A DNA stretch of 64,000 nt, taken from IMG/VR virus record IMGVR_UViG_3300023179_000029, positions 1 to 64,000 of that record; one strand, written 5' to 3'. The position numbers were made by a program, and so were the translations under genes. Source of the DNA: a virus. The notes beneath the pieces are model-generated. The model ran no database searches, was not told where the DNA came from, and saw only the letters and a list, made by a program, of their open reading frames with translations. Below, in pieces: positions 14,155-33,642 of this stretch; position 1 is the first letter of the stretch; every line of letters starts with the position of its first letter.

Positions 14155-14179
14155 TGCCCCCGGCAGGACTCGAACCTAG
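14155..14179 (-). pseudogene. 3' remnant of a broken tRNA (probably tRNA-Lys)
   Basis: The minus strand reads as a T arm plus 3' acceptor strand: CTAGG-TTCGAGT-CCTGC followed by CGGGGGC and discriminator A. No 5' partner lies next to it. The acceptor strand CGGGGGC can pair over 7 bp (two G-T wobbles) with GCCCTTG of the orphan 5' half at 14772, so these look like the two ends of one gene. The T stem is imperfect, which suggests decay. Confidence 0.6.
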
Positions 14180-14184
14180 TTTAA

Positions 14185-14258
14185 TGGGGGCGGTAGGGAT
14201 CGAACCTACAAATCGTCTGATTAAAAGTCAGGTGCTGTACCAATTTAGCTACACCCCC
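14185..14258 (-). tRNA. tRNA-Lys (UUU)
   Basis: Intact cloverleaf: acceptor GGGGGTG/CGCCCCC (one T-G), D arm GTAGCTAAATTGGTACAGC, anticodon loop CTTTTAA (anticodon TTT), T arm GTAGG-TTCGATC-CCTAC, discriminator A. Its first 14 nt also encode the end of the HNH gene upstream. It lies between the two halves of another tRNA-Lys. Confidence 0.92.
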
Positions 14259-14694
14259 GAAATTGAAGCGTATACTTATAATAGTTATAAGTTTTTGCTG
14301 TGCGGCGTTTATGACAATTTGCGCATACTACTTCGCATTTGTCAATTTCTTCTAAAATACGTTCAAATGTATATCCTTGCATTATCATCTCTGATACATT
14401 TTTGAATTTGTCTCTTTGATGATCAAACTCAAGTACTATTATATCAGATTCATTGCAGTCAACGCAAGGGTGATTTTTTAAATACTCAACAACCTTGCTT
14501 TGACTATTGCCAATGTTTGCATTTTTGCGTTTTAAAATATCTTGTTTATGTTTCTCTCTATTTTCTGCGTAATATTGTCTAGACCTAGCCCGATTGCATT
14601 CACGACATACATTTTGTTTTCCATCGGGGCGACTAGTTTTTTTATTATACTCAGAAAGCGGTTTTTCTTGTTTGCAAAGTGTGCATTGTTTCAT
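14245..14694 (-). CDS. HNH homing-type endonuclease 1
   Basis: 149 aa from the ATG at 14694. Zinc-binding CTLCKQEK...CREC opens the protein; the HNH core is CVDCNESDIIVLEFDH (metal and catalytic His) and CEVVCANCHKRRT at the C-terminus. Such free-standing HNH enzymes cut DNA site-specifically and spread by homing. The stop codon TAA lies inside tRNA-Lys (positions 12-14 of the tRNA). The start codon is flush against an 11-bp perfect hairpin (14695-14725) and no ribosome binding site is exposed, so translation may be damped or leader-dependent. An upstream ATG at 14712 lies inside the hairpin and is less likely. Confidence 0.85.
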   Translation of the reverse strand: MKQCTLCKQEKPLSEYNKKTSRPDGKQNVCRECNRARSRQYYAENREKHKQDILKRKNANIGNSQSKVVEYLKNHPCVDCNESDIIVLEFDHQRDKFKNVSEMIMQGYTFERILEEIDKCEVVCANCHKRRTAKTYNYYKYTLQFRGCS

Positions 14695-14725
14695 AACTTT
14701 TAACTTGCGCAAATAGTTAAAAGTT
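14695..14725 (-). promoter_or_regulatory. 11-bp hairpin immediately before the HNH1 start codon
   Basis: AACTTTTAACT pairs perfectly with AGTTAAAAGTT around a 9-nt loop, and the ATG follows with no gap. It would occlude ribosome access on transcripts that contain it. Homing endonuclease genes of T4 are known to be silenced in some transcripts by hairpins over the ribosome binding site, so a similar role is plausible. Confidence 0.55.
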
Positions 14726-14734
14726 AGTAATAAA

Positions 14735-14772
14735 TTAAAAGTCCGCTACTCTACCAATTGAGTTACAAGGGC
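14735..14772 (-). pseudogene. 5' half of a broken tRNA-Lys (UUU)
   Basis: The minus strand reads acceptor GCCCTTG, a D arm (TAACTCAATTGGTAGAGTA), then GCGGA and the loop CTTTTAA, which has a TTT anticodon. The sequence then leaves the tRNA pattern and runs into the HNH1 leader. The missing part has a candidate at 14155-14179. A promoter places the transcript start about 4 nt upstream of the first base. Confidence 0.7.
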
Positions 14773-14782
14773 GAGCAGAGAT

Positions 14783-14819
14783 ATGATAGCAAAGCCCGGA
14801 CCATGTTTCAAGTCCGGGC
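14783..14819 (-). terminator. holin terminator with embedded promoter (module A)
   Basis: Hairpin GCCCGGAC/GTCCGGGC (14819-14812 with 14801-14794), loop TTGAAACATG, followed by TTTGC. The loop contains a TTGAAA -35 box (14811-14806); 17 nt later, through the 3' arm of the hairpin, lies TATCAT (14788-14783). It would end the tRNA-Thr-Ile-Met-holin transcript and start the next one near 14776, just ahead of the tRNA-Lys half. Confidence 0.75.
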
Positions 14820-14844
14820 CAAGCCAAGATAGGATCACCTCAAG

Positions 14845-15051
14845 TTAGTTCTTTGGGGGAAGTGCTGAACGAATACCAACTGCTGATGCAAACGCAATAA
14901 TGGTAGTGAGAATCTTCTGTGCCGATGAAGTGGCCGAACCGCCAAGAACACCAGACTGAATGATGAATGTAGCGGCGCCAACAAAAATACCATAAGCAAA
15001 TGATACTTGAGCCTTTGTAAGATGACGGAGCCAATTAATAAACTTTGTCAT
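14845..15051 (-). CDS. holin
   Basis: 68 aa with a strong AAAGGAGG ribosome binding site. The N-terminus is basic (MTKFINWLRHLTKAQ), followed by two likely membrane segments (about 16-36 and 45-60; FAYGIFVGAATFIIQSGVLGG and ILTTIIAFASAVGI) and a polar tail. Holins form the membrane lesions that release the endolysin at the set lysis time. Size, topology and the endolysin gene close upstream support the call. It is transcribed with tRNA-Thr, -Ile and -Met and ends at module A. Confidence 0.8.
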   Translation of the reverse strand: MTKFINWLRHLTKAQVSFAYGIFVGAATFIIQSGVLGGSATSSAQKILTTIIAFASAVGIRSALPPKN

Positions 15052-15085
15052 ATTACCTCCTTTCAGTTATTACTTGTCGCAATCA

Positions 15086-15158
15086 TGCCATGGACAGGGT
15101 TCGAACCTGTATAAAACCGATTATGAGTCGGGCGCCTAAACCATTCAGCCACCATGGC
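15086..15158 (-). tRNA. tRNA with CAU anticodon (Met, or Ile2)
   Basis: Acceptor GCCATGG/CCATGGC, anticodon stem CCCGA/TCGGT, loop CTCATAA (CAT), T arm ACAGG-TTCGAAC-CTGT. The initiator features of the second CAU tRNA at 17389 are absent. A lysidine-modified tRNA-Ile for AUA cannot be excluded, though a tRNA-Ile(UAU) is encoded next to it. Confidence 0.85.
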
Positions 15159-15162
15159 CTAT

Positions 15163-15233
15163 AGTCCCGCCGGGATTTGAACCCAGAATACGACTTTATA
15201 AGAATCGCGTGTTTACCACTTACACCACGGGAC
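15163..15233 (-). tRNA. tRNA-Ile (UAU)
   Basis: Acceptor GTCCCGT/GCGGGAC, anticodon stem CGATT/AGTCG (one T-G), loop CTTATAA with anticodon TAT, T arm CTGGG-TTCAAAT-CCCGG. Reads AUA directly, a codon used often in the AT-rich tail genes. It is 1 nt from tRNA-Thr and 4 nt from the CAU tRNA, so all three are processed from one transcript. Confidence 0.85.
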
Positions 15234-15234
15234 A

Positions 15235-15308
15235 AGCCGAAGGTCGGATTCGAACCGACGACATCTGCTTTACAAGAGCAGCGCTCTGGCCAACTGAGCT
15301 ACTTCGGC
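15235..15308 (-). tRNA. tRNA-Thr (UGU)
   Basis: Acceptor GCCGAAG/CTTCGGC, D arm TAGCTCAGTTGGCCAGAGC, anticodon stem CTGCT/AGCAG with loop CTTGTAA (TGT), T arm GTCGG-TTCGAAT-CCGAC. First gene of the Thr-Ile-Met-holin transcript. Confidence 0.9.
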
Positions 15309-15316
15309 GTAAGCCT

Positions 15317-15325
15317 ATTATACCA
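15317..15325 (-). promoter_or_regulatory. extended -10 promoter of tRNA-Thr-Ile-Met-holin
   Basis: TGG-TATAAT at 15325-15317 overlaps the last codons of the endolysin, whose stop TAA is part of the -10 box. The predicted start near 15310 lies 2 nt before tRNA-Thr. No TTG-type -35 box is seen at 17 nt. Confidence 0.65.
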
Positions 15326-16703
15326 GATAATTCATGTCACAATTGCCGATGCCCTTAGCCGACTTAGGGCTAAGAACACCTGTTGTGCCATCTGTGTATT
15401 GGCAAGCCCAAAGATGGGGTTTAGCAATAGCCGGAACAGTAGTTTCAGGTTTAGCAGTATAAGCAGCATGCCAATAACGAAGGGGCTTACCTTTATGATC
15501 TTTGGGCCACTTAGTTACGGTACCGGGGAGGTACCAGCCGCCACTATAAATAACGCGAACAGTATAACCTAAACGCCATGCTTCAGTAATAAAGTCTGCA
15601 ATCCACTTATCGCCGTTTTTATTTTGAAACTTGGGATCCTCCCAATCAAGAACAAGTCGATCATCAGGATTAAGCTTGCCAGCGGCCTTAATAGCATCAG
15701 TGAAATTCTTTGCCTCTTGCTGAGGGGTATTATTACTTGGACGGGCAAAATGATAAATAAAACGAGTAAGCCCAATGCGACCAGCTTCGCGAAAACGAGC
15801 TTGAAATGCAGAATCCTTAAATGTGCGACCTTCGCTAGCTTTTAATACAATAAGTGGATAACCGCCAGATTTATATTGTGAAAGGTTTACTGTCCTCTGA
15901 CCTTCGTAACAGTCCGCAAAATACTTAGCATTAGGATTCTTAGGCTTGGTAGGAGGCTTAGGTGTTGGCTTAACAGGGGGCTTGACTGGAGCAGGAGTTG
16001 GCTTAGAAGGCTTTACCGGAGGCTTGGGATTAACGGGGGGCTTAGGAGTAGGTTTAGACTTAACAGGGCCGTTAAGAGCCTTCCAAGTGCCGGGACCGAC
16101 AATTCCATCGGCAGTGAGTTTATAATCCTTCTGGAATTTCTTTACTTGACGAGTAGTTAGGGCGCCAAAACCATTATTGTTAATTGGGTATACGGCGGGC
16201 CAATAACCATGCTTTTTAAGGAGCTTCTTAAGAGTTACGCAATAACCATTTTTATCACCCTGCTGAATAGTAGGTTCGACCTTGTACTTATCAACGGCTG
16301 AATAATGGCCTTCCTTCCACTTGAAATGCCAAGGCTCAGAAGGAGCATCACTCCATGACTTTGACCAACCAAAATCCTTGCCGTAATTAGCAATAAGCCT
16401 TTGGGTCTGATAAGGAACGTCAAGAGCAAGACCCAATCCGTGATTAGAAGTGCCGGGACGCGCTGCAAGGTTGCCGCCGTTTTGGTAACGCTCCCAAGCG
16501 GCCCATTGGCTCCAACGATTAGCTCGCCAATCGCCGGGCTTACCGAGCGGACGATAAGAATCATTAACCTCTACGGTTTGACCGTGCTTTTCTTTTACAT
16601 AACGAGCAAAAGCATTCCAAGCATCAGCGGCGTCATGACGAAGGCGGCCACCGCCAGCAATATTAGTTAATTCGCTGTTTTTAAGTTGTCCGTTAGCACT
16701 CAT
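15318..16703 (-). CDS. endolysin: peptidase M15 + peptidoglycan-binding + GH25 lysozyme
   Basis: 461 aa from the ATG at 16703 (a GTG one codon earlier is possible). Domain order: a VanY/M15-type peptidase (about 15-135) with zinc-site motifs SNHGLGLALD (about 91-100) and PWHF (about 127); a peptidoglycan-binding repeat domain (about 145-215, GFGALTTRQVKKFQKDY...DGIVGPGTW); a Pro/Lys-rich linker (about 220-258); and a GH25 muramidase (about 260-461) with the catalytic DxE in LVLDWED near 353. It degrades host peptidoglycan at lysis by cutting both peptide and glycan. No signal peptide is present, so it depends on the holin. A TATAAT five nt before the ATG suggests a leaderless mRNA. Confidence 0.92.
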   Translation of the reverse strand: MSANGQLKNSELTNIAGGGRLRHDAADAWNAFARYVKEKHGQTVEVNDSYRPLGKPGDWRANRWSQWAAWERYQNGGNLAARPGTSNHGLGLALDVPYQTQRLIANYGKDFGWSKSWSDAPSEPWHFKWKEGHYSAVDKYKVEPTIQQGDKNGYCVTLKKLLKKHGYWPAVYPINNNGFGALTTRQVKKFQKDYKLTADGIVGPGTWKALNGPVKSKPTPKPPVNPKPPVKPSKPTPAPVKPPVKPTPKPPTKPKNPNAKYFADCYEGQRTVNLSQYKSGGYPLIVLKASEGRTFKDSAFQARFREAGRIGLTRFIYHFARPSNNTPQQEAKNFTDAIKAAGKLNPDDRLVLDWEDPKFQNKNGDKWIADFITEAWRLGYTVRVIYSGGWYLPGTVTKWPKDHKGKPLRYWHAAYTAKPETTVPAIAKPHLWACQYTDGTTGVLSPKSAKGIGNCDMNYLV

Positions 16704-16708
16704 CACAT

Positions 16709-16714
16709 ATTATA
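16709..16714 (-). promoter_or_regulatory. putative -10 box of a leaderless endolysin mRNA
   Basis: TATAAT at 16714-16709 ends 5 nt before the ATG, which places +1 at the start codon. The -35 region (TCAATA at 17 nt) is poor and there is no TG extension, so strength is uncertain. No ribosome binding site is visible. Confidence 0.45.
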
Positions 16715-16738
16715 TTCTTGATATACAATTTTATTGAG

Positions 16739-16812
16739 TAGGGGCGGTGGGATTCGAACCCACACTGTAGGGATTTTAAGTCCCCTTTCTCTGCCAGTTG
16801 GAATACGCCCCC
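16739..16812 (-). tRNA. tRNA-Leu (UAA) with a short variable loop
   Basis: Acceptor GGGGGCG/CGCCCCT (terminal G-T), anticodon stem GGGGA/TCCCT, loop CTTAAAA with anticodon TAA, T arm GTGGG-TTCGAAT-CCCAC. Bacterial tRNA-Leu normally has a long variable arm; this one has a short loop, so its aminoacylation identity deserves a check. Confidence 0.82.
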
Positions 16813-16818
16813 AAGATC

Positions 16819-16827
16819 ATTATATCA
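16819..16827 (-). promoter_or_regulatory. extended -10 promoter of tRNA-Leu
   Basis: TGA-TATAAT: the TGA is the stop codon of the deaminase gene. The predicted +1, 7 nt downstream, is the first base of tRNA-Leu at 16812, so the 5' end may need no RNase P trimming. No good -35 box. Confidence 0.6.
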
Positions 16828-17295
16828 GATGTTCATGCGCCTAGCATACTCTGACCATTCTCCATCAGACCTCTGCAAAAGAGATGTAATTGTTTCTGAA
16901 TTTACAGTCCAAGATCCATCATTATTCATTTCGCAATAAATGACCCTATCGACAATGGACAAAAGTTGTCTTGCACAAGACAAACATGGACGAGAATTTT
17001 TTGCAAAATTGCCAGCCCTTGTCAAAGTTACGATACATACTGTGTCAGCATCAAAATCTCTTGGCAAATTTGTAATAGCATCATGTTCTGCATGAACAGA
17101 AGCAATGGCCATACCGCCATTATGGTTATGCGAACAACCTTTAGCAAAAATTTCTGGCCTTTTACCATTTTTAAAAATTACTGCCCCAGTACGATGACGC
17201 TTGTGAGTAGAACGCCTCGCCTGTTTGCAAGTTTCTTCCCAAACGGTAAGAGGAGCAACTTCTGTAAGAATGCTTGTAGATGGAATGTTCTTCAT
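16825..17295 (-). CDS. deoxycytidylate deaminase-like enzyme
   Basis: 156 aa from the ATG at 17295; this start was preferred over an upstream in-frame ATG because the promoter places +1 on this ATG. The zinc site of the cytidine/dCMP deaminase family is visible: HAEHD (about 69, with the proton-shuttle Glu) and PCLSCAR (about 107). dCMP deaminases make dUMP for dTTP synthesis, and many phages carry one. The family also includes other nucleotide and RNA-editing deaminases; without a search the substrate is unsure. It is flanked by tRNA genes. Confidence 0.75.
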   Translation of the reverse strand: MKNIPSTSILTEVAPLTVWEETCKQARRSTHKRHRTGAVIFKNGKRPEIFAKGCSHNHNGGMAIASVHAEHDAITNLPRDFDADTVCIVTLTRAGNFAKNSRPCLSCARQLLSIVDRVIYCEMNNDGSWTVNSETITSLLQRSDGEWSEYARRMNI

Positions 17296-17301
17296 AACAC
17301 T

Positions 17302-17341
17302 AGTATAGCATAAGACAAAGACCGGCACAAGGCCGGTCTTT
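17302..17341 (-). terminator. terminator with embedded promoter (module B)
   Basis: Hairpin AAAGACCGGC/GCCGGTCTTT (10 bp) with loop CTTGT (minus strand). TTGTGC (17330-17325) begins in the loop and acts as -35 box; 17 nt later, ending in TGC, comes TATACT (17307-17302). The terminator would end the tRNA-fMet transcript, while the promoter starts the deaminase mRNA at its ATG (17295), leaderless. The hairpin is symmetric and would also work in the other direction. Confidence 0.75.
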
Positions 17342-17388
17342 GCTGACATGTATAGTTGAAATAATTCAACTTTTGTTCCCTTACGGGA

Positions 17389-17461
17389 TAGCGGAGGCGG
17401 GAATCGAACCTCGCGACCTCTAGGATATGAACCTAGCGAGCTACCACTGCTCCACTCCGCG
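17389..17461 (-). tRNA. initiator-like tRNA-fMet (CAU)
   Basis: The 5' end is CGCGGAG with an unpaired C1 facing T72, the hallmark of bacterial initiators (C1 mismatch). The D arm GGAGCAGTGGTAGCTC and the AGGTCGC variable region match initiator tRNAs closely. Anticodon loop TTCATAT (CAT), stem CTAGG/CCTAG. The three consecutive G-C pairs at the base of the anticodon stem, typical of initiators, are not all present (CTAGG), so initiator function is probable, not certain. Confidence 0.8.
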
Positions 17462-17471
17462 ATGTATACAC

Positions 17472-17500
17472 ATTATACCACACTCTAATGTGATTTTCAA
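17472..17500 (-). promoter_or_regulatory. promoter of tRNA-fMet
   Basis: TTGAAA (17500-17495), 17 nt ending in TGG, TATAAT (17477-17472). This is the best-matched promoter of the window. Predicted +1 near 17465, 4 nt before the tRNA. Confidence 0.8.
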
Positions 17501-17501
17501 G

Positions 17502-17573
17502 TAGCGGGTAGGAGAATCGAACTCCTATCGCGGGTGTGAAAAACCCGAATCCTGACCGTTAGACGAACCCGCC
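17502..17573 (-). tRNA. tRNA-Glu (UUC)
   Basis: Acceptor GGCGGGT/ACCCGCT (G-T end pair), anticodon stem CGGGT/ACCCG with loop TTTTCAC (anticodon TTC), T arm TAGGA-GTTCGAT-TCTCCTA. Discriminator A. Confidence 0.88.
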
Positions 17574-17583
17574 AAGTTTTGTC

Positions 17584-17592
17584 ATTATATCA
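17584..17592 (-). promoter_or_regulatory. extended -10 promoter of tRNA-Glu
   Basis: TGA-TATAAT; +1 near 17577, 4 nt before tRNA-Glu. No TTG -35 box at the usual distance. It lies in the 25-nt gap after tRNA-Asn. Confidence 0.55.
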
Positions 17593-17598
17593 TATTTA

Positions 17599-17670
17599 CT
17601 GGTCCGGTAGGATTCGAACCTACAACCGTCGCCTTAACAGGGCGCTGCACTGCCATTGTGCTACGGACCA
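17599..17670 (-). tRNA. tRNA-Asn (GUU)
   Basis: Acceptor TGGTCCG/CGGACCA, anticodon loop CTGTTAA (anticodon GTT), T arm GTAGG-TTCGAAT-CCTAC, discriminator G. The first 10 nt also form the end of the HNH2 gene, whose stop codon TAG covers tRNA positions 8-10. Confidence 0.9.
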
Positions 17671-18020
17671 ATGGTGGTAATACCATTTTCAACTTCTCTA
17701 TGGCAATTGGCACATAATAGCACACATTTATTAGCCTCTTCAAGAAGTTTATCAAATGATTTACTTAATCCTTTTTGACCTAAACCAAAATTTTTGTCAT
17801 TAGGATCAATATGATGAAACTCAAGGGCCGCTGAACATTTGTCGTATTTACAAATTTGACATTTGCCCCCAAAATGAGAAACTAATTTCAATTTGTTTTT
17901 ACGACGCTGCTCGGCAACTCTATCTTGTCTACATTGTTTGCATCTGTAATAACCACGACCCTCCAGAACAAATTCTGTTAGGCCGTGGTGTTTACATTCT
18001 TTTGTAATATATTTTTTCAC
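17661..18020 (-). CDS. HNH homing-type endonuclease 2
   Basis: 119 aa from a GTG at 18020. It has the same layout as HNH1: an N-terminal zinc pair (CKHH...CKQCRQD), then the core CQICKYDKCSAALEFHH (with catalytic His) and CVLLCANCHRE at the C-terminus. It would cut a specific DNA target, probably in tRNA DNA of related phages. The stop codon is inside tRNA-Asn, the same arrangement as HNH1/tRNA-Lys, though the two proteins are not close in sequence. TATAAT lies 4 nt before the GTG and a CGGTATA/TATACCG hairpin (18058-18034) just upstream; no ribosome binding site is seen. Confidence 0.85.
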   Translation of the reverse strand: MKKYITKECKHHGLTEFVLEGRGYYRCKQCRQDRVAEQRRKNKLKLVSHFGGKCQICKYDKCSAALEFHHIDPNDKNFGLGQKGLSKSFDKLLEEANKCVLLCANCHREVENGITTIGP

Positions 18021-18033
18021 ATATATTATATGT

Positions 18034-18058
18034 CGGTATATTACAAAATGTTATACCG
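18034..18058 (-). promoter_or_regulatory. hairpin between the structured RNA and HNH2
   Basis: CGGTATA pairs with TATACCG around an 11-nt loop. It may be the 3' boundary of the RNA upstream or a leader element of HNH2. No U tract follows directly, so it is not a clear terminator. Confidence 0.4.
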
Positions 18059-18065
18059 AAGAAGG

Positions 18066-18186
18066 TGAGTCGCCAATGCTTTTCCGCTTGCACATAGTAG
18101 ATCATCGCCTATTGATTAATTCTACTTTTTCATCAATAGGTTAGGCGGTTTCATTATTATTTATACCGATAATAATGGGCGACTCA
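18066..18186 (-). ncRNA. candidate structured noncoding RNA, 121 nt, with pseudoknot
   Basis: No gene fits here, yet the sequence folds well. Ends: TGAGTCGCC (18186-18178) pairs with GGCGACTCA (18074-18066), 9 bp. Inside are an 8-bp hairpin ATTATTAT/ATAATAAT; a CCGC/GCGG helix (18148-18145 with 18087-18084); and within it a 9-bp hairpin CCTATTGAT/ATCAATAGG with a 15-nt loop. The loop segment AGTAGA (18126-18121) is complementary to TCTACT (18101-18096), giving a 6-bp pseudoknot. A promoter (TTGCAC-17-TATAAT) puts +1 at 18186, the first base of the outer stem. Function unknown; T4 also encodes stable RNAs of unknown role in its tRNA cluster. Confidence 0.6.
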
Positions 18187-18192
18187 ACACTC

Positions 18193-18221
18193 ATTATAAC
18201 AGATTTTTATGGGCGGTGCAA
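18193..18221 (-). promoter_or_regulatory. promoter of the structured RNA
   Basis: TTGCAC (18221-18216) lies in the 3' end of tRNA-Val; 17 nt ending in TGT; TATAAT (18198-18193). Predicted +1 is 18186. It follows the same form as the other promoters. Confidence 0.7.
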
Positions 18222-18282
18222 GGCTCGAACTTGCGACCTACTCGGTGTAAACGAGTTGCTCTCCCAACTGAGCTAACCGCCC
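18210..18282 (-). tRNA. tRNA-Val (UAC)
   Basis: Acceptor GGGCGGT/ACCGCCC, D arm TAGCTCAGTTGGGAGAGC, anticodon stem ACTCG/CGAGT with loop TTTACAC (anticodon TAC), T arm GCAAG-TTCGAGC-CTTGC, discriminator A. Its 3' end holds the -35 box of the RNA promoter downstream. Confidence 0.9.
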
Positions 18283-18299
18283 TTATTTGTTTACTACAA

Positions 18300-18373
18300 T
18301 CGGGATGGTAGGATTTGAACCTACGACCCTTCGCTCCCAAAGCGAATGCGCTACCAGACTGCGCCACATCCCG
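18300..18373 (-). tRNA. tRNA-Pro (UGG)
   Basis: Acceptor CGGGATG/CATCCCG, anticodon stem TTCGC/GCGAA with loop TTTGGGA (anticodon TGG), T arm GTAGG-TTCAAAT-CCTAC, discriminator A. It starts 5 nt after the glycosidase stop codon. Confidence 0.9.
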
Positions 18374-18377
18374 TGAT

Positions 18378-21300
18378 TTATATTCTACCTTGATAATAAA
18401 GTGCTTTATCTTGATAAGTTTGTGCTGCAAATTTAGGTTGTATTGAAATAACTATTTTAGCATTAGTTAAATTAAGATTATTAATTTCATTATTTAAATT
18501 TGAAACTGAGTAAGCATTAATAATAAATGTGTTTGATAATGGTAAGCTTTGTATTTGAAAAGACCCATTGTATTTATTTGCATTTGTACCAGTAATACCA
18601 ATAATAGTTACTGAATCAAATTGTCCACTTTTACCTCTAATATTATGATCATTTGCAGTCGTAAATGTCAATTGTTTATAATTAGAACTTTGTTTAATAT
18701 CAATTATACTAACAAATTCTTCTAATTGCAACTTAGAATATAAAATTCTTTGACCGACTCCGTTACTGGTATCTGACCCTGATGATAATGAAAGACTCAA
18801 ATTTTCAAATGTAGCAGGATTATTTTTATCATTTAAAACAAGATAAGGAAAAGTATAATTCATTACTTTAGTAATAGTTCCCGTATTTTCATTGACCACG
18901 CCAGTCGGCGGATTTAAACCAAATTCAGAAACAGGAATAGTAAAAGTTTTAGTTTTAGAGTTTCCTGTTACAGTTATCGGTAAATCAGTTGATTTAGCTT
19001 GACCACTTTGAGTAGAGTTTGCAAGGGTAACAGTTTTTTCAATTGTAAATTGAGAATCGGTTCTTGTAGCAACGGTTCCAGTGATATTATATCCAGTTGG
19101 TAACATTCCTGTAATTGTTACTGTTTGACCAACAACAAATTTATTAGATGCAAAATAAGTTAATTTAGTTCCATTACTTGAAGCATTAGTAACACTTGTT
19201 GTGTAAAGCGTGTTATATTTTGTATCTCCAGTTATTCCAGAAATAATGACTCTTTGCCCGGTAATTAATTCGTGAGCGGATCTTGTCGTATATGTTACAG
19301 TATCGCCGCTGACAGATGCAGATGCAATAAGAATATTTTCCGTGGTAAAATACGGCATTTTAAATTTAACAGTTTTTCTGTCATCACTAATTGCATCATT
19401 TTCTGAACTAATTTCTATACCATTTGGAAAATTTTTTAAAATAGACTTAGAAGATCCATATAATCTGTAAATTTTAGTTCCCGTGGCCCACAAACTTGGA
19501 ACTGGAGTGGTAAATGTGGCAAATGTATCGCCTTTATTAACTGTAAAAGTTCCAGATTTTAAAGCCCCGTTTTTAGAACGATAAAGGCCTCTTTCGTTGT
19601 TAGTTCCGGCATCAGGATTAGAACTTGCGCTGCGAATAACGTAAGCAGTTTCATCACTAACCCAGTTAAAATACATTACATTTTCAATTTGCCAATTTGG
19701 CAATTCAAGTAAATTTTTAAAACTTGTGATGGAACTATCCCAAGACAACAATCTGTCTATGTATGTGTTTTGCTCTGTTTCAGATACAGCACCATCGCCA
19801 TAACCTATTTGATCAGTGGACCACCCATACTCGCTAAGAATTAGATTTGGACAAGTCAAATTATTAACTGTTGGGATGCCATAGCCGTTTTTATCTTGTT
19901 GGAAAATTGTTTGGTAATTCGGATCGTCTGTAAATTGTCTTATCAATACGGTTGATGCTTTTGCTCCATTATAATCACTTGGATATATATTTACACCAAA
20001 TTTATCATATGCATATTTTCCATTTTTAATTGCAAATATTTTTGGATAAGTCGTCTTTGGAATAGTTACCGCATTTGAAACAGCGTTTGCGTTTGGATCA
20101 ACGTCATGCATTTCTTTTTTGATAATTTTAATAAAATCGATAAAACTATATGCAAATTCATATGCATAATCTTTTACAGAAACAGATTTATTAAAAATAC
20201 CATCTGTAGTTTTTAATTTAATTTGTTTAGGATGAAAAGGCCAATTGGCTCCACGAACAAGTAATTCTTGATCCATTGTGTGCGTTGGACCGTCGTTAAT
20301 TCGAAATTTAAAATCTGCGGGATAATTTCTTTTTCCATAAGCAGCAGAATCGCACTCGTTCCAAATTTGATAATTGATCATTTTTGGAAAAATTAATTTA
20401 ACGGGTACACCCGCTGGCATTGTTTTATTTAAAGGTTTATCAATTGTAATTTGGTTTCCATTAATTGAACAAATTTTTGCATTTGGAGGAATATATGAAT
20501 CGTTACCATTTTGCGCAGTCGATGGGACAGATCCGTATGCATCGCTTTCTATTGTCATCCCGACAACAATATTTGATGTTGTCGGATAGCTACTATCAAT
20601 AATTAAATTAATAGTTTGATTATAACTTGTTGAAATAACGCTAGACGAAGCGGAAGTAACCGTAGTAACGTCGTTATTTAATCCGCTCCAAAAAGAACCA
20701 TTAGTGCCGAACCTTATTAACATTTTATTCATAAAATTAGCAAAATCATTATAATTTGAAGGAATTGACCCTCCTCTTCTTTGCAAATTAGTTGCAAATA
20801 TCACCGCATCATTAACTGAATCAAAAGTAAAAACATCACCATTAGATATACTTTTACTTTTACCATTAATAACATTGTTATTTTCATAATTAGCAATAGT
20901 ACCAATAACATAACCATCTACAACGCCAGTTATATTTTGATTTAAATTAATTTTCCAAGTATCGTTGACGCGAGTTAATGATGTAATTCGGGTATCATCT
21001 TGAATATTGGTACCGGTTATAACCATATTTGGAAGTAACAAACACCCTCTTTTTAAATCATCAATTATAATAAATGAATCACCAGAATTACCTGTTGCAT
21101 AAATTTTGACGCCTTTATTTTGTAATTGAGTTTTTGTTTCTGGGTCATTAAAAGAAAACAAATTGGTATTGTCAATTTTGTAATCCCAATCCATCGCCCA
21201 ATTAGGCGGAGATCCTAATCTTGGCATCACTTGAATTCCTACTTCGCTTGCTAATTTTAAATAATTTTCTAAAGGAAAAATTGAATTATTCCAATTAATT

Positions 21301-21761
21301 GAATGATTTAAAATTCCACCTACAACAGTTGGAGCATTAGGTTCAAAATCTTTCCAAAAAACAGATGTTCTAACTGACTCTACACCACTGGCCGCCATAT
21401 TGTGCAAAATGTATTCAATATTTTTTTGATTATTAAAAAAATAAATATTTAAATTTGTAATATTTTTATTTACATTTGCATTTAAAGTAATTTGATTACC
21501 AGTTTTACCAATAACTCTAGTCGGCTCTCCATTACTATTTAAAGCAGGAATGTTTACACCAGTTACAAACTGGCCAATTTCTATACCCGTTGAACTTGCA
21601 ACCGTAACAATATTTTGTCCGGCGGTGGCCGATTGACAAATAGTTTTAATTTTTGTAGATTCAACAGAACTACCATTGTACATGGTAAAACCGTTTGTCA
21701 AAAATGTAGTTGGAAGTAAATTACTTCCAATAAAAGTCACTGGGTATTTTCTTGTAGCCAT
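18378..21761 (-). CDS. tail-associated clan GH-A glycoside hydrolase (GH39/GH5-like)
   Basis: 1127 aa. A long TIM-barrel glycosidase region is recognisable: AASGVESVRTSVFWKDFEP (about 125) and EVGIQVMPRLGSPPNWA (about 175) match early strands of clan GH-A barrels; YQIWNEC (about 467) holds the acid/base Asn-Glu pair; LILSEYGW (about 643) the nucleophile Glu. Beta inserts interrupt the barrel. The last 300 residues have at least three modules of the type H.L..GQ.V.I.GI.G...YN..., also found in the adhesin at 39672. It probably degrades a host-surface polysaccharide or wall polymer from the tail. It stands alone among tRNA genes, away from the tail cluster, and its AT-rich codon use matches the tail genes. 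No ribosome binding site is evident. Confidence 0.72.
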   Translation of the reverse strand: MATRKYPVTFIGSNLLPTTFLTNGFTMYNGSSVESTKIKTICQSATAGQNIVTVASSTGIEIGQFVTGVNIPALNSNGEPTRVIGKTGNQITLNANVNKNITNLNIYFFNNQKNIEYILHNMAASGVESVRTSVFWKDFEPNAPTVVGGILNHSINWNNSIFPLENYLKLASEVGIQVMPRLGSPPNWAMDWDYKIDNTNLFSFNDPETKTQLQNKGVKIYATGNSGDSFIIIDDLKRGCLLLPNMVITGTNIQDDTRITSLTRVNDTWKINLNQNITGVVDGYVIGTIANYENNNVINGKSKSISNGDVFTFDSVNDAVIFATNLQRRGGSIPSNYNDFANFMNKMLIRFGTNGSFWSGLNNDVTTVTSASSSVISTSYNQTINLIIDSSYPTTSNIVVGMTIESDAYGSVPSTAQNGNDSYIPPNAKICSINGNQITIDKPLNKTMPAGVPVKLIFPKMINYQIWNECDSAAYGKRNYPADFKFRINDGPTHTMDQELLVRGANWPFHPKQIKLKTTDGIFNKSVSVKDYAYEFAYSFIDFIKIIKKEMHDVDPNANAVSNAVTIPKTTYPKIFAIKNGKYAYDKFGVNIYPSDYNGAKASTVLIRQFTDDPNYQTIFQQDKNGYGIPTVNNLTCPNLILSEYGWSTDQIGYGDGAVSETEQNTYIDRLLSWDSSITSFKNLLELPNWQIENVMYFNWVSDETAYVIRSASSNPDAGTNNERGLYRSKNGALKSGTFTVNKGDTFATFTTPVPSLWATGTKIYRLYGSSKSILKNFPNGIEISSENDAISDDRKTVKFKMPYFTTENILIASASVSGDTVTYTTRSAHELITGQRVIISGITGDTKYNTLYTTSVTNASSNGTKLTYFASNKFVVGQTVTITGMLPTGYNITGTVATRTDSQFTIEKTVTLANSTQSGQAKSTDLPITVTGNSKTKTFTIPVSEFGLNPPTGVVNENTGTITKVMNYTFPYLVLNDKNNPATFENLSLSLSSGSDTSNGVGQRILYSKLQLEEFVSIIDIKQSSNYKQLTFTTANDHNIRGKSGQFDSVTIIGITGTNANKYNGSFQIQSLPLSNTFIINAYSVSNLNNEINNLNLTNAKIVISIQPKFAAQTYQDKALYYQGRI

Positions 21762-21815
21762 TAAAAATTTGTTAATATTGGTTTATCAACTATTATTATC
21801 AAGTAATTGTGCAAA

Positions 21816-21897
21816 TGGTGGGGGCAGGATTCGAACCTGCGAACTCTGAGAGAGAGGTTTTACAGACCCCGTGCGTTGACCGCTTGCATACCCCACC
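21816..21897 (-). tRNA. tRNA-Tyr (GUA)
   Basis: Acceptor GGTGGGG/CCCCACC, anticodon stem GGGGT/ACCTC, loop CTGTAAA (anticodon GTA), long variable arm as expected for tRNA-Tyr, T arm GCAGG-TTCGAAT-CCTGC, discriminator A. Confidence 0.9.
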
Positions 21898-21931
21898 GTA
21901 ATACTTTATAAATTATCAATGTACTAGTAAT

Positions 21932-21970
21932 AGTATATCATAACAAAAGAGGCTCCACAAGGGAGCCTCT
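21932..21970 (-). terminator. nrdJ terminator with embedded promoter (module C)
   Basis: Hairpin AGAGGCTCC/GGAGCCTCT (9 bp), loop CTTGT, then TTTTGTT, a good intrinsic terminator for nrdJ. TTGTGG (21960-21955) starts in the loop; 17 nt on, ending in TGA, comes TATACT (21937-21932). The promoter would start near 21925 and drive tRNA-Tyr and probably the glycosidase gene. Loop, spacing and -10 box equal those of module B although the stems differ. Confidence 0.8.
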
Positions 21971-22002: not shown

Positions 22003-23700
22003 TTAGGTCCCACACAGGCCTCCGACACAACGCTCTTCGGTCTCCTCAAATACGACGCCAACCTTGTCTTTAGCTTCCTCATAAGTAGAAATCGTAAGGG
22101 GCTGTCCGCCTCTTGACCCATCGGGGTAGCATGTGATGCCTCTGAGATGTGGTAGATAGCCGTACAGAAGATCTGCGAAATCTGCAACCTCTGTAGGATC
22201 CGTCATTGGATACGGGGTGTTAATTGTTGATGAAATACCATGGTCGACAAACTGCTGAACCCATGCTTGCATTGAAATACGACGCTCAACATCATAAGAA
22301 AGAGTATAAGCATCTTCAATCGCCTCTGGGTCAACGCCTTCATCAATTAAACGCTTAGCAGTAGGATCAATTACATACTGGTAACGAATGATATCCTCAC
22401 CATTGGGCTGAGCCTCCTTATAACGGCGCTTGAAAGCAACGCAGAAAATAGGCTCGATCCCAGTGGTGGTTTCGGCAATAATTCCAATTGTGCCGGTAGG
22501 AGCAATAGCGCGAGTTTTAATTGGAGCATTAAGTCCGTGCTTCTCAGCCCACTCTGCGGCAAACTCTCCGGAATCAGCGTATTCGCCAAGCCATTCGCCA
22601 AGCTCAAGATCGGGACCGTATTTCTTGCCCCTTTTAAGTAGCCATTCATGGATGCCCATGACACCAAGGCCAAGACGACGATTCTGGGCGCGAACTTCCT
22701 TCACCTTGTCGTAAGGAAGATCTGAATACACGGTTCCGGCAAGTAGGAATAGTGTTCCGTACTTAACGACCTCGCGCATTTCTACGATATCCTCAATCCT
22801 TGAAAGATTAATTGATCCAAGATTGCAAATATCCGAATCGTCATGTGATGTAACTTCGGTACATGCGTTACGAAGAGTTTCACCGGTATTCTCACCAATG
22901 TCTACGCTAAATCCGGGTTCAGCGGTCTTAACCATGTACTGAACGCCAAGATGGTAAATGTGATGGGCAATTTTGTGCTTAGGATGATCCTTGTTTTCAT
23001 AAGCAACAAAGAATTCATCATCAAGTAGAATGGAAATGTTTGTGAATTCCATATCTGCTGGAAAATTAAAATCTTTAGCCTTAATTTCACGAACTTCATC
23101 ACGCCAATCCTTGATGCGAATGAATTCCTCGCAATCTGGATGTGACCAATTGAGACCGGCCCAGATAGCAGAGCGACGAGCGCCACCCTGCATAACCCCG
23201 CGACCAATTTCATTAACCATCTTCATTAGAGGAATAGGTCCGGATGCGACTCCGCCAGTCCTTTTAATAGGGGTATTTGATGGGCGAATATCGGAATAAT
23301 CAATACCAATGCCAGCACCTGTCTGTAGAGCCATAGCTGACTTGGCAAGAAGATCCGCCCAACCTTCCCTAGAATCCTCTGCCCTAAGGAGAAGGCAATT
23401 CTGGGTCTGATGTAGATCCCTTCCGGAAGCGTAAAGATAACGACCACCGGGAATAAACTTCCTATCCCGAACGTAACCAAAAAGTTTATTGAACTCGACA
23501 CTATCCTCATCATAGCCAAGAGCACCAAGGACATTACTTACTACACGACGAGCAGTATCCTCCCAATTTTCAATTACATTACCTTCTTCATCCTTCCAAG
23601 CATATTTTTGTTCGTAAATGGTCTTAGCGAACTCACTCATCTCTAAAGATGAATCATGACTTACTTCATTAGTTGTATTTAGTTCTGTTACTTGATTCAT
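22003..23700 (-). CDS. nrdJ: adenosylcobalamin-dependent (class II) ribonucleotide reductase
   Basis: 565 aa, a compact class II enzyme that reduces ribonucleotides to deoxyribonucleotides for phage DNA synthesis. Seen: NCLLLRAEDSREGW region, QTGAGIGIDYSDIRP, GGVASGPIPLMKM, and the active-site NACTEV with Cys and Glu (about 280), followed by CNLGSINLSR; APTGTIGIIAETTTGIEP; and the C-terminal redox pair CVGGLC (558-563). No partner subunit gene is needed for this class. AAGGAAAG precedes the ATG. The gene is monocistronic, ends at module C, and is led by a promoter and a long leader, which allows for control by cobalamin or nucleotides. Confidence 0.93.
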   Translation of the reverse strand: MNQVTELNTTNEVSHDSSLEMSEFAKTIYEQKYAWKDEEGNVIENWEDTARRVVSNVLGALGYDEDSVEFNKLFGYVRDRKFIPGGRYLYASGRDLHQTQNCLLLRAEDSREGWADLLAKSAMALQTGAGIGIDYSDIRPSNTPIKRTGGVASGPIPLMKMVNEIGRGVMQGGARRSAIWAGLNWSHPDCEEFIRIKDWRDEVREIKAKDFNFPADMEFTNISILLDDEFFVAYENKDHPKHKIAHHIYHLGVQYMVKTAEPGFSVDIGENTGETLRNACTEVTSHDDSDICNLGSINLSRIEDIVEMREVVKYGTLFLLAGTVYSDLPYDKVKEVRAQNRRLGLGVMGIHEWLLKRGKKYGPDLELGEWLGEYADSGEFAAEWAEKHGLNAPIKTRAIAPTGTIGIIAETTTGIEPIFCVAFKRRYKEAQPNGEDIIRYQYVIDPTAKRLIDEGVDPEAIEDAYTLSYDVERRISMQAWVQQFVDHGISSTINTPYPMTDPTEVADFADLLYGYLPHLRGITCYPDGSRGGQPLTISTYEEAKDKVGVVFEETEERCVGGLCGT

Positions 23701-30474: not shown

Positions 30475-33400
30475 TTGTCAACATTTGCACCAATTCACAA
30501 TCACACAGAATATTCAGCACTAGACGGTCTAGCAACTGCGAGAGAAATTGCACAGCGTTGTATTGAGATTGGATGCAATTGTTGCGGCATTACCGACCAC
30601 GGCACAGTTAGTGGTCACCTTGAATTTGCCAAGACAATGGCAGAGTTTGATATTAAGCCCGTGTTTGGTTGCGAGCTTTATCACGGAACTAAAGCAAAGT
30701 TTGAAAAGCATGAGCGCGATCAGGCTCATTTCATTGCTGGTGCAATGACCGATGAGGGTCTTCGTAATCTTTGGCGACTTGTTGACGATGCCTCTGGCAA
30801 TTATCGATTTGTAGGCCGGGTTAATTGGGATATGCTTAAGAAGCGTAGCGAAGGTCTTTTTGCAACCTCTGCTTGCATTCAAGGATTGGTTGCTCAGGGT
30901 GTTATGAATGGTGATCCTTATGAGCCGCTCAATAAGTATCTTGAGATTTTCAAGGACAATTTTTATATTGAAATTCATACCTACCCCGGCGAAGAGCATA
31001 TGGCTCTTAACACCATTCTTGTCGGGATTGCGCAGGAGCGAGGCATCCCGCTTATTTATGCGACTGACGCGCACTTTGCCAGTCCTGAACAATACGAGGT
31101 ACATGACGCCTTTGTAGCTATGCAAACTGGCGAAAATGTTTATATGCCAACTGAGGATCGCAAGATGTGGCACCCTAAGTCGCTTTATATTCAAGACGAG
31201 GCCCAGATTCGTGAATCACTCAATTATCTTCCCGAGTCAGCGATTGATGAGGCGTTGCGCAATTCACAAGATCTTGCAGATAAATGTAATGCATCTCTTC
31301 CTGAGGTTAACCGCCACCTTCCAACTTTCATTCCTAAAGATTGCCCATGGACTAAAAACGATGGGTCAGCCGCAGAATTATTCTTTCAGTTGGTCGAAGA
31401 CGGTTTGCATAAGCGGTACGGAGATCCCGGCCCTGAGATTTGGGATCGCGCAGGCCGAGAGATGGAAGTATTCCTTGATGCCGGACTAGAGCATTACTTT
31501 TTGCAGGCATGGGACTTTTGCGAGTTTTGCAATAAGAACGGAATCAAGCGCGGCCCCGGTCGTGGTTCTGCCGCAGGAGCAATCGTGTCTTATGCCCTTG
31601 GCATTACAGATATCGATCCTATGAAGTACGGGCTAATTTTTGAAAGGTTTTACAATCCGGGTCGTGAAGATGGTTACCCCGATATTGATAATGATTTTCC
31701 CGTGGCTGAGCGTAAGCGCGTCCGCCAATACCTTATGGACAGATGGGGCGATGATAACGTCAAGACCATCGGTACAATTACCCGTCTTAAACCTAAGGCT
31801 GCACTAGACAGGACTTACAAGGCTTGCAATATTTCTTGGGACGAGAAGGAAGATCTTAAAAAGATCATTGACAAGGTTCCCGATATTGACATTCTTGGAT
31901 CAGACTCAATTGGTTGGTCAGAAGACGTTGATCCCGGCAAGACTATTTATGTTATGGATCATGTTGGCGATGAGGTTCTTGAATGGGCCGACAATGATCG
32001 CCGTAAATATTGGCTTGATATTGTTGAAATCATTACATCGCGTATTTCAGGATATGGCGTTCACCCATCAGGAGTTGTTGTTGCCGATGTGCCTCTTAAC
32101 GACGAGCTTCCATGCATGTGGAACCGTCAGCAGGAAGTACAGGTAACCTGTTTTCCAATGGCCGATGTTGATAAGCGCATGTTCGTCAAACAGGATCTTC
32201 TTGGTCTTCGCAACCTTGATACATTGCAGGAATGGGAGAATGAATCGGGCAATATTATTGATTGGTCAAAGCTTGATGACGGCCCAACTGAAATGTGGGA
32301 GATGCTTGATCAGGGATTGACTCTGGGCGTATTCCAAATTGAGAAGGGATACGCTAGGCAGCTTTGTAAGGAGTTCAAGCCGCGATCTATCGAAGACCTT
32401 GGGATTATTGTTTCTTTGAACCGTCCGGGTCCAATTCGCTCCGGTGCGCCGCAGTCATTCATCAATCGTCGTAATGGTGTTGAAGCAGTAAGTTACGATC
32501 ATCCAATTCTTGAGGATATCCTTGAGCCAACTTATGGATGGTTCTTGTATCAAGAGCAGGTTATTGCTTTCTTTAACAAGCTTGGCTATTCGCTTTCTGA
32601 ATCCGATGCAGTTCGTAAGATCCTTGGTAAGAAGAAGCCCGAGCAGATGGTCGCACTTTACAACGGTGAGGGTGAATGGAAGGATCGCGGGTTTGTTCAG
32701 GTGTGTCTTGAAAATTATATTGATCAAAGCACCCTTGACATCATTTGGAATAAGCTGGAGGATTTTGCTAAGTATTCATTCAATAAGTCACATGCTATTG
32801 CATATGCCACGATTGCCTTCAGGACGCTTTACGCTAAGTACACTGCGCCCGCTGAATTCTTGATGGCCTGTATTCGAACAAATCCCGATGCCGCTGGCGA
32901 GTATGTTGCCGAGGGTCGTAGAATGGGCATTAATGTTATGCCACCAGATATCCTTAAGTCGCAAAAGGATATCGCTGTCGTTGACAATCAAATCGTTTTT
33001 GGATTCTTCAACATCAAGGGAATCGGCAAGAATGCAGCAGAGCGGATTATTGAATTCAGAGAAAAGTATGACATTACATCGCCTGAAAAGTTGTCAGACG
33101 CTATTGATCAAGAGCAGGATCTTTGGGAGTGGGCCAAGCAGGATGCAAAGAAGAAAGGTGAGCCATATAATGTTCGCTCACCCCGACAGACAGTTACAGC
33201 AAACAGGATCCCTGCTTTGTACGACGCAGGCGCATGGGATAATTACGAAACCCGTGACATCTCTTTAAGCGAAAAGCAAAAGCTAGAGCGGCAGATGCTT
33301 GGCGTCATCCTTACCGATGAAACCAATCAGGTATTTGCAATCAATCAAGATATGGTTGACGAATGTGATGAGTATGTTGATCTGGAATACGGCGAAGATG

Positions 33401-33642
33401 GAATCATTGTTAAACTTCCGGGCGTCGTATCTAGTTGCGTTGAAAGGTACACAAAGAAGGATGGCAAAGCAATGGGTATCGTCAATATTGAATATCAAGG
33501 CGAGGCCGTAGAGTTTGTTGTTTTCCCGAAGGATTGGGATGCATATAAGTTTGTATGGAAGGAAATGACTCCGGGTATATTTAGCTTGACAAAAACAGAA
33601 AAAGGTGTTAAATTTAATGACGCCACGGTATTAAGGAAATAA
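30475..33642 (+). CDS. dnaE: DNA polymerase III alpha subunit (DnaE-type), phage replicase
   Basis: 1055 aa from a TTG start, with AAAGGAAAA upstream. The N-terminal PHP domain keeps its metal ligands: HNHTEYSALDG, DHGTVSGH, EIHTYPGEEH and TDAHFASP (up to about 210). The palm has the catalytic Asp-x-Asp in YPDIDNDF (about 402), and the RGSAAGAIVSYALGI and VFQIEKGYARQ segments are standard for family C polymerases. A C-terminal helix-hairpin-helix-like IKGIGKNAAERI follows. No exonuclease domain insertion; proofreading could come from PHP or the host. Phages with a DnaE replicase are a minority. RecA and resolvase genes follow in the same operon. Confidence 0.95.
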   Translation: MSTFAPIHNHTEYSALDGLATAREIAQRCIEIGCNCCGITDHGTVSGHLEFAKTMAEFDIKPVFGCELYHGTKAKFEKHERDQAHFIAGAMTDEGLRNLWRLVDDASGNYRFVGRVNWDMLKKRSEGLFATSACIQGLVAQGVMNGDPYEPLNKYLEIFKDNFYIEIHTYPGEEHMALNTILVGIAQERGIPLIYATDAHFASPEQYEVHDAFVAMQTGENVYMPTEDRKMWHPKSLYIQDEAQIRESLNYLPESAIDEALRNSQDLADKCNASLPEVNRHLPTFIPKDCPWTKNDGSAAELFFQLVEDGLHKRYGDPGPEIWDRAGREMEVFLDAGLEHYFLQAWDFCEFCNKNGIKRGPGRGSAAGAIVSYALGITDIDPMKYGLIFERFYNPGREDGYPDIDNDFPVAERKRVRQYLMDRWGDDNVKTIGTITRLKPKAALDRTYKACNISWDEKEDLKKIIDKVPDIDILGSDSIGWSEDVDPGKTIYVMDHVGDEVLEWADNDRRKYWLDIVEIITSRISGYGVHPSGVVVADVPLNDELPCMWNRQQEVQVTCFPMADVDKRMFVKQDLLGLRNLDTLQEWENESGNIIDWSKLDDGPTEMWEMLDQGLTLGVFQIEKGYARQLCKEFKPRSIEDLGIIVSLNRPGPIRSGAPQSFINRRNGVEAVSYDHPILEDILEPTYGWFLYQEQVIAFFNKLGYSLSESDAVRKILGKKKPEQMVALYNGEGEWKDRGFVQVCLENYIDQSTLDIIWNKLEDFAKYSFNKSHAIAYATIAFRTLYAKYTAPAEFLMACIRTNPDAAGEYVAEGRRMGINVMPPDILKSQKDIAVVDNQIVFGFFNIKGIGKNAAERIIEFREKYDITSPEKLSDAIDQEQDLWEWAKQDAKKKGEPYNVRSPRQTVTANRIPALYDAGAWDNYETRDISLSEKQKLERQMLGVILTDETNQVFAINQDMVDECDEYVDLEYGEDGIIVKLPGVVSSCVERYTKKDGKAMGIVNIEYQGEAVEFVVFPKDWDAYKFVWKEMTPGIFSLTKTEKGVKFNDATVLRK

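Follow-up and report, generated by a model that had tools for sequence, protein, structure and literature searches.

Three short elements on the minus strand of a phage genome, termed T1, T2 and T3 here, are probably compact bifunctional stop/start junctions, in which a terminator and a host-type (sigma-70/SigA) extended -10 promoter are nested within ~40 bp and which separate small cassettes of genes. From their anatomy, geometry, compensatory conservation and recurrence in other phages, we infer that both activities operate in vivo and that the elements have an insulating function.

Source record and gene context

The window, that is, the whole stretch of 64,000 nucleotides that was analysed, comprises bases 1-64000 of the 127,398-base IMG/VR virus record IMGVR_UViG_3300023179_000029 and has a G+C content of 41%. 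Judged by its sequence, the 127-kb contig is that of an actinophage-like myovirus. Distant relatives of its contractile-tail baseplate protein occur in Rhodococcus phages E3 and Finch, in Myrna and in other large mycobacteriophages, and the cultured phages with the closest ribonucleotide reductases are Tunturi_3 and Streptomyces phages. From both proteins, the host is likely to be an actinobacterium. Three relatives whose reductases are 85-87% identical, G001 (= L005), G002 (= L006) and G003 (= L007), were compared with the reference genome (G000). The search with the baseplate protein added one further relative contig, in which no units were found, and the search of viral contigs with the deaminase gave no matches.

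The minus strand at ~13-24 kb carries 12 tRNA genes, two HNH endonucleases, an endolysin-type gene, a deaminase and the reductase. The genes next to the three elements are as follows:

14845..15051, minus strand: 68-aa ORF with no assigned function, which stops just upstream of T1
16825..17295, minus strand: dCMP-deaminase-like gene, with its ATG 6 nt past the T2 -10 and probably leaderless
21816..21897, minus strand: tRNA-Tyr, the first feature behind T3
22003..23700, minus strand: ribonucleotide reductase gene, upstream of T3

The first-pass annotation had described one downstream start as a leaderless ATG and the others as preceding tRNA genes. The leaderless ATG is plausible at T2 (17295), whereas the tRNA-Lys behind T1 is not intact but split (window 14155-14770, minus strand), with the 5' portion running from about 14772 and the 3' portion, AGGTTCGAGTCCTGCCGGGGGCA, at about 14177-14155. 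The insert between them carries an HNH endonuclease gene together with a further tRNA-Lys that is complete (14185-14258), and looks like a homing element that would bring a replacement for the tRNA broken by its insertion; the tRNA-Lys is intact in G001. A second HNH endonuclease gene (window 17661-18020, minus strand) ends at tRNA-Asn (17598-17671) and is perhaps another such element. Matches of Rfam RF04354 (Plastid-ycf2 5UTR) to the antisense of two tRNA genes (window 15085-15158 and 14184-14258, plus strand), both below the gathering score, are probably an artefact of that model. A relative with a 67% identical reductase (L013:13744-14194) has a tmRNA gene and 28 tRNA genes, for one of which ARAGORN called a tta (stop-reading) anticodon.

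Anatomy of the three elements

The starting observation, three minus-strand terminators with a TTG in the loop, exactly 17 nt and then a -10 box, was confirmed by direct reading and by script. The terminators listed here were identified from the sequence, a script scan and folding, and the extended -10 boxes from a pattern scan:

14794..14819, minus strand: T1 terminator hairpin, GCCCGGAC-TTGAAACATG-GTCCGGGC, then TTTG
14806..14811, minus strand: T1 -35 box, TTGAAA, beginning in the loop and kept in G001-G003
14783..14791, minus strand: T1 extended -10, TGC-TATCAT, with a 17-nt spacer
17316..17342, minus strand: T2 terminator hairpin, CAAAGACCGGC-CTTGT-GCCGGTCTTTG
17325..17330, minus strand: T2 -35 box, TTGTGC, beginning in the loop and kept with a different stem in G002 and G003
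17302..17310, minus strand: T2 extended -10, TGC-TATACT, with a 17-nt spacer
21949..21969, minus strand: T3 terminator hairpin, GAGGCTCC-CTTGT-GGAGCCTC, then TTTTG
21955..21960, minus strand: T3 -35 box, TTGTGG, beginning in the loop and kept in G001-G003
21932..21940, minus strand: T3 extended -10, TGA-TATACT, with a 17-nt spacer

Read directly, the full units are GCCCGGAC-TTGAAACATG-GTCCGGGC-TTTGC-TATCAT for T1, CAAAGACCGGC-CTTGT-GCCGGTCTTTG-TCTTATGC-TATACT for T2 and GAGGCTCC-CTTGT-GGAGCCTC-TTTTGTTATGA-TATACT for T3. The earlier proposal that every unit combines a terminator with a promoter is borne out by the sequence patterns expected of each. All three have the stable G+C-rich hairpin and U-tract of intrinsic (Rho-independent) terminators; their RNA folding energies lie 4-6 SD below those of shuffled sequence, and their U-tracts are short (TTTG, TTTG-TCTT and TTTTG-TT). 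All three also match the sigma-70/SigA extended -10 promoter pattern (-35 TTGnnn, 16-18 nt, TGn-TAnnnT), including the TG of the extended -10, which had gone unremarked in the first reading and comes from the end of the U-tract. The distance from -10 to ATG at T2 (6 nt) and at T1 in G002 and G003 (7 nt) fits a transcription start 6-8 nt past the -10.

The two signals would fit together because each uses positions that the other leaves free. A terminator needs paired arms and a U-tract, leaving the loop and the downstream sequence free, and a promoter needs two hexamers, with the sequence of the 17-bp spacer largely free. The -35 can therefore lie in the loop, with the 3' arm and the U-tract acting as the spacer, and the TG that extends the -10 is given by the U-tract end. 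The promoter would work at the level of DNA alone and the hairpin at that of RNA alone, and as the length from a terminator loop to the end of the U-tract is ~17 nt, nesting would cost little.

Promoter class and chance background

An accidental overlap of promoter-like with terminator-like sequence is one alternative, given that TTG loops are common in terminators and that promoter-like matches abound (70 in 16 kb, with 47 expected). However, TGnTAnnnT follows at a 17-nt spacer after 26 of the 6576 TTGs in the whole record (0.4%), as against 3/3 of the T loops, and this background, together with the conservation in relatives and the spacing peak at 17 nt described below, makes an accident very improbable. 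Measured against these sequence counts, the arrangement of T1-T3 is not chance.

By pattern counts, the promoters in question make up a genuine class: the 127 kb contain TTG-N17-TGnTAnnnT 26 times, versus 3 for a reversed control pattern, and three close relatives show a similar excess. Most of these predicted promoters lie outside hairpins (for example at 13153-13125, 17500-17472 and 18221-18193), which counts against the stop/start reading. In first-order Markov versions of the 127 kb, a less strict scan that accepted any TAnnnT at 16-18 nt produced 0-4 hits per genome, which means that an isolated weak case can arise by chance.

Beyond the window, the minus strand of the contig at 109009-123375 (L003:5309-19675) carries another class of promoter in about 20 copies, and G001-G003 have 7-8 copies each. 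The pattern is TTTAC-N6-TTTAC-N11-TAnnnT, mostly TGnTAnnnT, in which a pair of TTTAC-type boxes at a distance of 11 bp precedes an extended -10, a spacing that suggests an activator on one helix face. At four copies (121757, 111533, 110196 and 109009), a terminator hairpin overlaps the distal box.

Loop sequence

The identity of the T2 and T3 loops (CTTGT) had been taken as a sign of selection, a view that does not hold. In two scans of 2.9 million viral contigs for NTTGN-loop hairpins, CTTGN and TTTGN proved to be generic terminator loops, and the identical loops therefore say little. The patterns demanded some downstream TAnnnT, so that only the spacing distribution is informative; TAnnnT lay at 17 nt in 1/26 (CTTGN) and 2/23 (TTTGN) unique cases, with no peak or enrichment, and one of the latter two is the T3 of G002 itself. 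This suggests how a unit could originate, as a common loop would already hold a usable -35 and only the -10 would have to evolve.

A natural control for T2 and T3 is found on the contig at 70145-70127, minus strand (L001:6227-6245), where a strong terminator flanked by two minus-strand ORFs shares their CTTGT loop but lacks a -10 at 17 nt. The first-pass statement that all clear minus-strand terminators carry the module thus holds within the window and fails for the contig. A co-directional hairpin whose loop has no promoter is also a point against the stop/start reading.

Conservation in relatives

Conservation of the loop TTG and of the 17-nt spacing in relatives had been proposed at the outset as a test, and both were found. 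The overlap is kept in 8/9 orthologous places (T1-T3 in G001-G003), with spacers of 17 nt and one of 16, while the stems diverge with compensation; selection on the geometry is supported by this comparison of sequences. T1 has a spacer of 17 nt throughout G001-G003, and three of the eight pairs of its stem are changed on both sides between G000 and G002/G003 with pairing retained. T2 in G002 and G003 has another stem, with the TTG in an inner loop, a spacer of 17 nt and an unchanged distance of 6 nt between -10 and ATG. T3 stands behind the reductase gene in all three relatives (spacers 17, 17 and 16), and in G001 its stem is shorter and the distance from TTG to -10 still 17 nt. The ninth place, T2 in G001, has lost the overlap, a terminator being followed there by an extended -10 without a loop TTG, and this argues against the junction reading.

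The same comparison bears on the idea that the inverted repeat over the -35 and the spacer is the DNA-binding site of a regulator rather than a terminator. Inverted repeats over promoters are often operators, but T1, T2 and T3 have no stem sequence in common, their stems change in a compensatory way, and U-tracts follow them behind gene ends. An operator is thus highly unlikely, and it was rejected, as the differing stems hold no shared palindrome.

The feature after T3 varies by genome (G000-G003), being tRNA-Tyr, a gene with a Shine-Dalgarno leader, tRNA-Arg or a tail-protein-like gene. As far as these genomes go, the unit stays and the cargo changes. As stop/start junctions, the elements would separate cassettes of tRNA genes, the deaminase, and tail or lysis genes, giving every cassette a start of its own and keeping read-through out; separating small cassettes is their likely job. 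The same position between cassettes bears on interference, in which a promoter-bound polymerase would block an arriving one, or passing polymerases would occlude the promoter, so that neighbouring cassettes alternate. A promoter-bound polymerase would cover the hairpin with its footprint, but the units show no sign of opposed use, and interference is improbable.

Recurrence in other phages

Fourteen pooled phage genomes contain 109 U-tract hairpins with a loop TTG, after which an extended -10 was found at a spacer of 17 nt in eleven cases, at 18 nt in one and at all other spacers from 8 to 29 nt in four. The eleven cases include orthologues, the distinct loci being T1, T2, T3, an AT-rich hairpin in G003 (also in G002) and two in Myrna, at 30736 and 134621 on the plus strand. 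Both Myrna units are kept in Phabba and also in ScoobyDoobyDoo, partly with other stem sequence; in the latter, the unit at the SprT gene has a TTG in the loop, 17 nt and TGC-TAGAAT, and that at NrdH has an imperfect hairpin and a spacer of 18. In Tunturi_3, which infects an acidobacterium, TTGACA lies over a loop and is followed after 18 nt by TATAGT, with an ATG a further 6 nt downstream. One candidate each was seen in Streptomyces phage Alone3 (TTGACA-17-TATCGT) and in Felix O1, the latter with an imperfect hairpin and no clear U-tract. No convincing unit was found in the scans of BRock, SPO1, T4, P1 and lambda, and its absence from the last four counts against the junction reading. Cluster M mycobacteriophages, considered as a possible precedent, were dropped when a scan of Bongo gave no unit.

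The baseline scan covered T4, lambda, P1, SPO1, Felix O1, T5 and Staphylococcus phage K. In phage K (KF766114), five or six TTGACN-17-TATANT promoters begin in terminator loops directly behind genes, with -35 boxes at 5160 and 32921 on the minus strand and at 129226, 132831, 136385 and 137365 on the plus strand; 5 of the 42 such promoters begin in loops, compared with 0.13 expected, and relatives of phage K retain units with other neighbouring genes or stems. In the record of vB_SauM-fRuSau02 (MF398190), an annotated terminator (33416-33459) overlaps an annotated promoter (33413-33441), an overlap left unremarked in the corresponding paper, which predicted 43 promoters and 32 terminators. RNA-seq data exist for Kayvirus infections (PMC7698491, PMC11598898), and RNA-seq of a Kayvirus, with early promoters of the form TTGACW-17-TATANT and 42 terminators, supports these promoters in general.

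The Kayvirus units of phage K and vB_SauM-fRuSau02 resemble T1-T3 in that a -35 (TTGACA) in a terminator loop is followed after 17 nt by a TATA-box, directly behind a gene, and T1-T3 share this fused design, their -35 beginning in the loop and their spacer being 17 nt. They differ in belonging to an unrelated phage and host, in their consensus -35, in AT-richer stems with a common CCTA-TTGAC-TAGG core, and in the Shine-Dalgarno leaders of the genes behind them. The design is thus the same with no sequence similarity seen, and its origin was probably independent. Coliphage T5 likewise packs a terminator and the next promoter together in a tRNA-rich region, but its -35 lies behind the hairpin, whereas that of T1-T3 begins in the loop. 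T5, also considered as a possible precedent, was set aside after its scan showed only adjacent pairs and no fused unit. Morons of temperate phages resemble the cassettes of this phage in being small and exchangeable and in each having a promoter and a terminator; unlike in morons, one element here ends one cassette and starts the next, and the cargo includes tRNA and core metabolic genes.

The module had been thought undescribed. A literature search of main texts found no description of a nested module, and to that extent the claim stands, but the overlap turns up again in phage K, and both signals are annotated over each other in the GenBank record of a Kayvirus. The element is on record in pieces, as adjacent or overlapping terminators and promoters annotated in T5 and Kayvirus. 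Going by the scans, the module is not unique to this phage, as it occurs in Myrna-type mycobacteriophages, in Tunturi_3 and at least five times in phage K.

Significance of the overlap

Whether the overlap itself matters is what separates the stop/start junction from plain compaction, which denies only this. Under compaction, a promoter placed as close as possible behind a terminator would overlap it merely to save space, and the -35 would fall in the loop by geometry alone (loop to U-tract end about 17 nt). Adjacency without overlap does occur, in G006, whose terminator and promoter behind the reductase gene are separate, in the pairs of T5, and at one Myrna site where the two are adjacent rather than fused. 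A scan of bacterial contigs gave eight hits with extended -10s after such terminators at spacers of 17, 17, 20-22 and 24, the two at 17 nt being too few for a test, and loop TTGs are common without promoters. Set against this, the peak at 17 nt with an intact TTG, kept despite stem change, shows that the loop -35 is used as such, although peak and retention do not show the overlap doing more than adjacency. Compaction therefore has about an even chance of being correct.

A more active role would be a hand-off, in which RNA polymerase stays on the DNA after release and restarts at the promoter beneath, one polymerase serving successive cassettes. Single-molecule work has shown post-termination retention, diffusion and reinitiation at nearby promoters (PMC6978380, PMC6978322), supplying a mechanism by which termination could feed nearby initiation at T1-T3, and the fused geometry would make a search unnecessary. 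Such recycling, unlike T1-T3, is an enzyme property seen on test templates and by RNA-seq and not a nested DNA element. As reinitiation in that work reaches across hundreds of base pairs, a hand-off does not depend on overlap, and antisense restart was preferred in one study (PMC6978322). A hand-off is accordingly rather unlikely, and there is a similarly small chance that the units are an evolved device for it, a chain of cassettes transcribed by recycled polymerase and reached independently by phages of Actinobacteria, Staphylococcus and Acidobacteria.

Implications

Annotation usually handles terminators and promoters separately, and the nested unit is missed as a result. A stretch of ~40 bp can hold both a terminator and a promoter without much conflict between them, a fit at which unrelated phages have arrived. 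The nested unit is a ready compact insulator-plus-promoter part, and phage K and Myrna are natural, culturable substrates for an in-cell test of polymerase restart beneath a terminator. The value of the finding lies in this recurrence and in cultured examples that can be tested directly.
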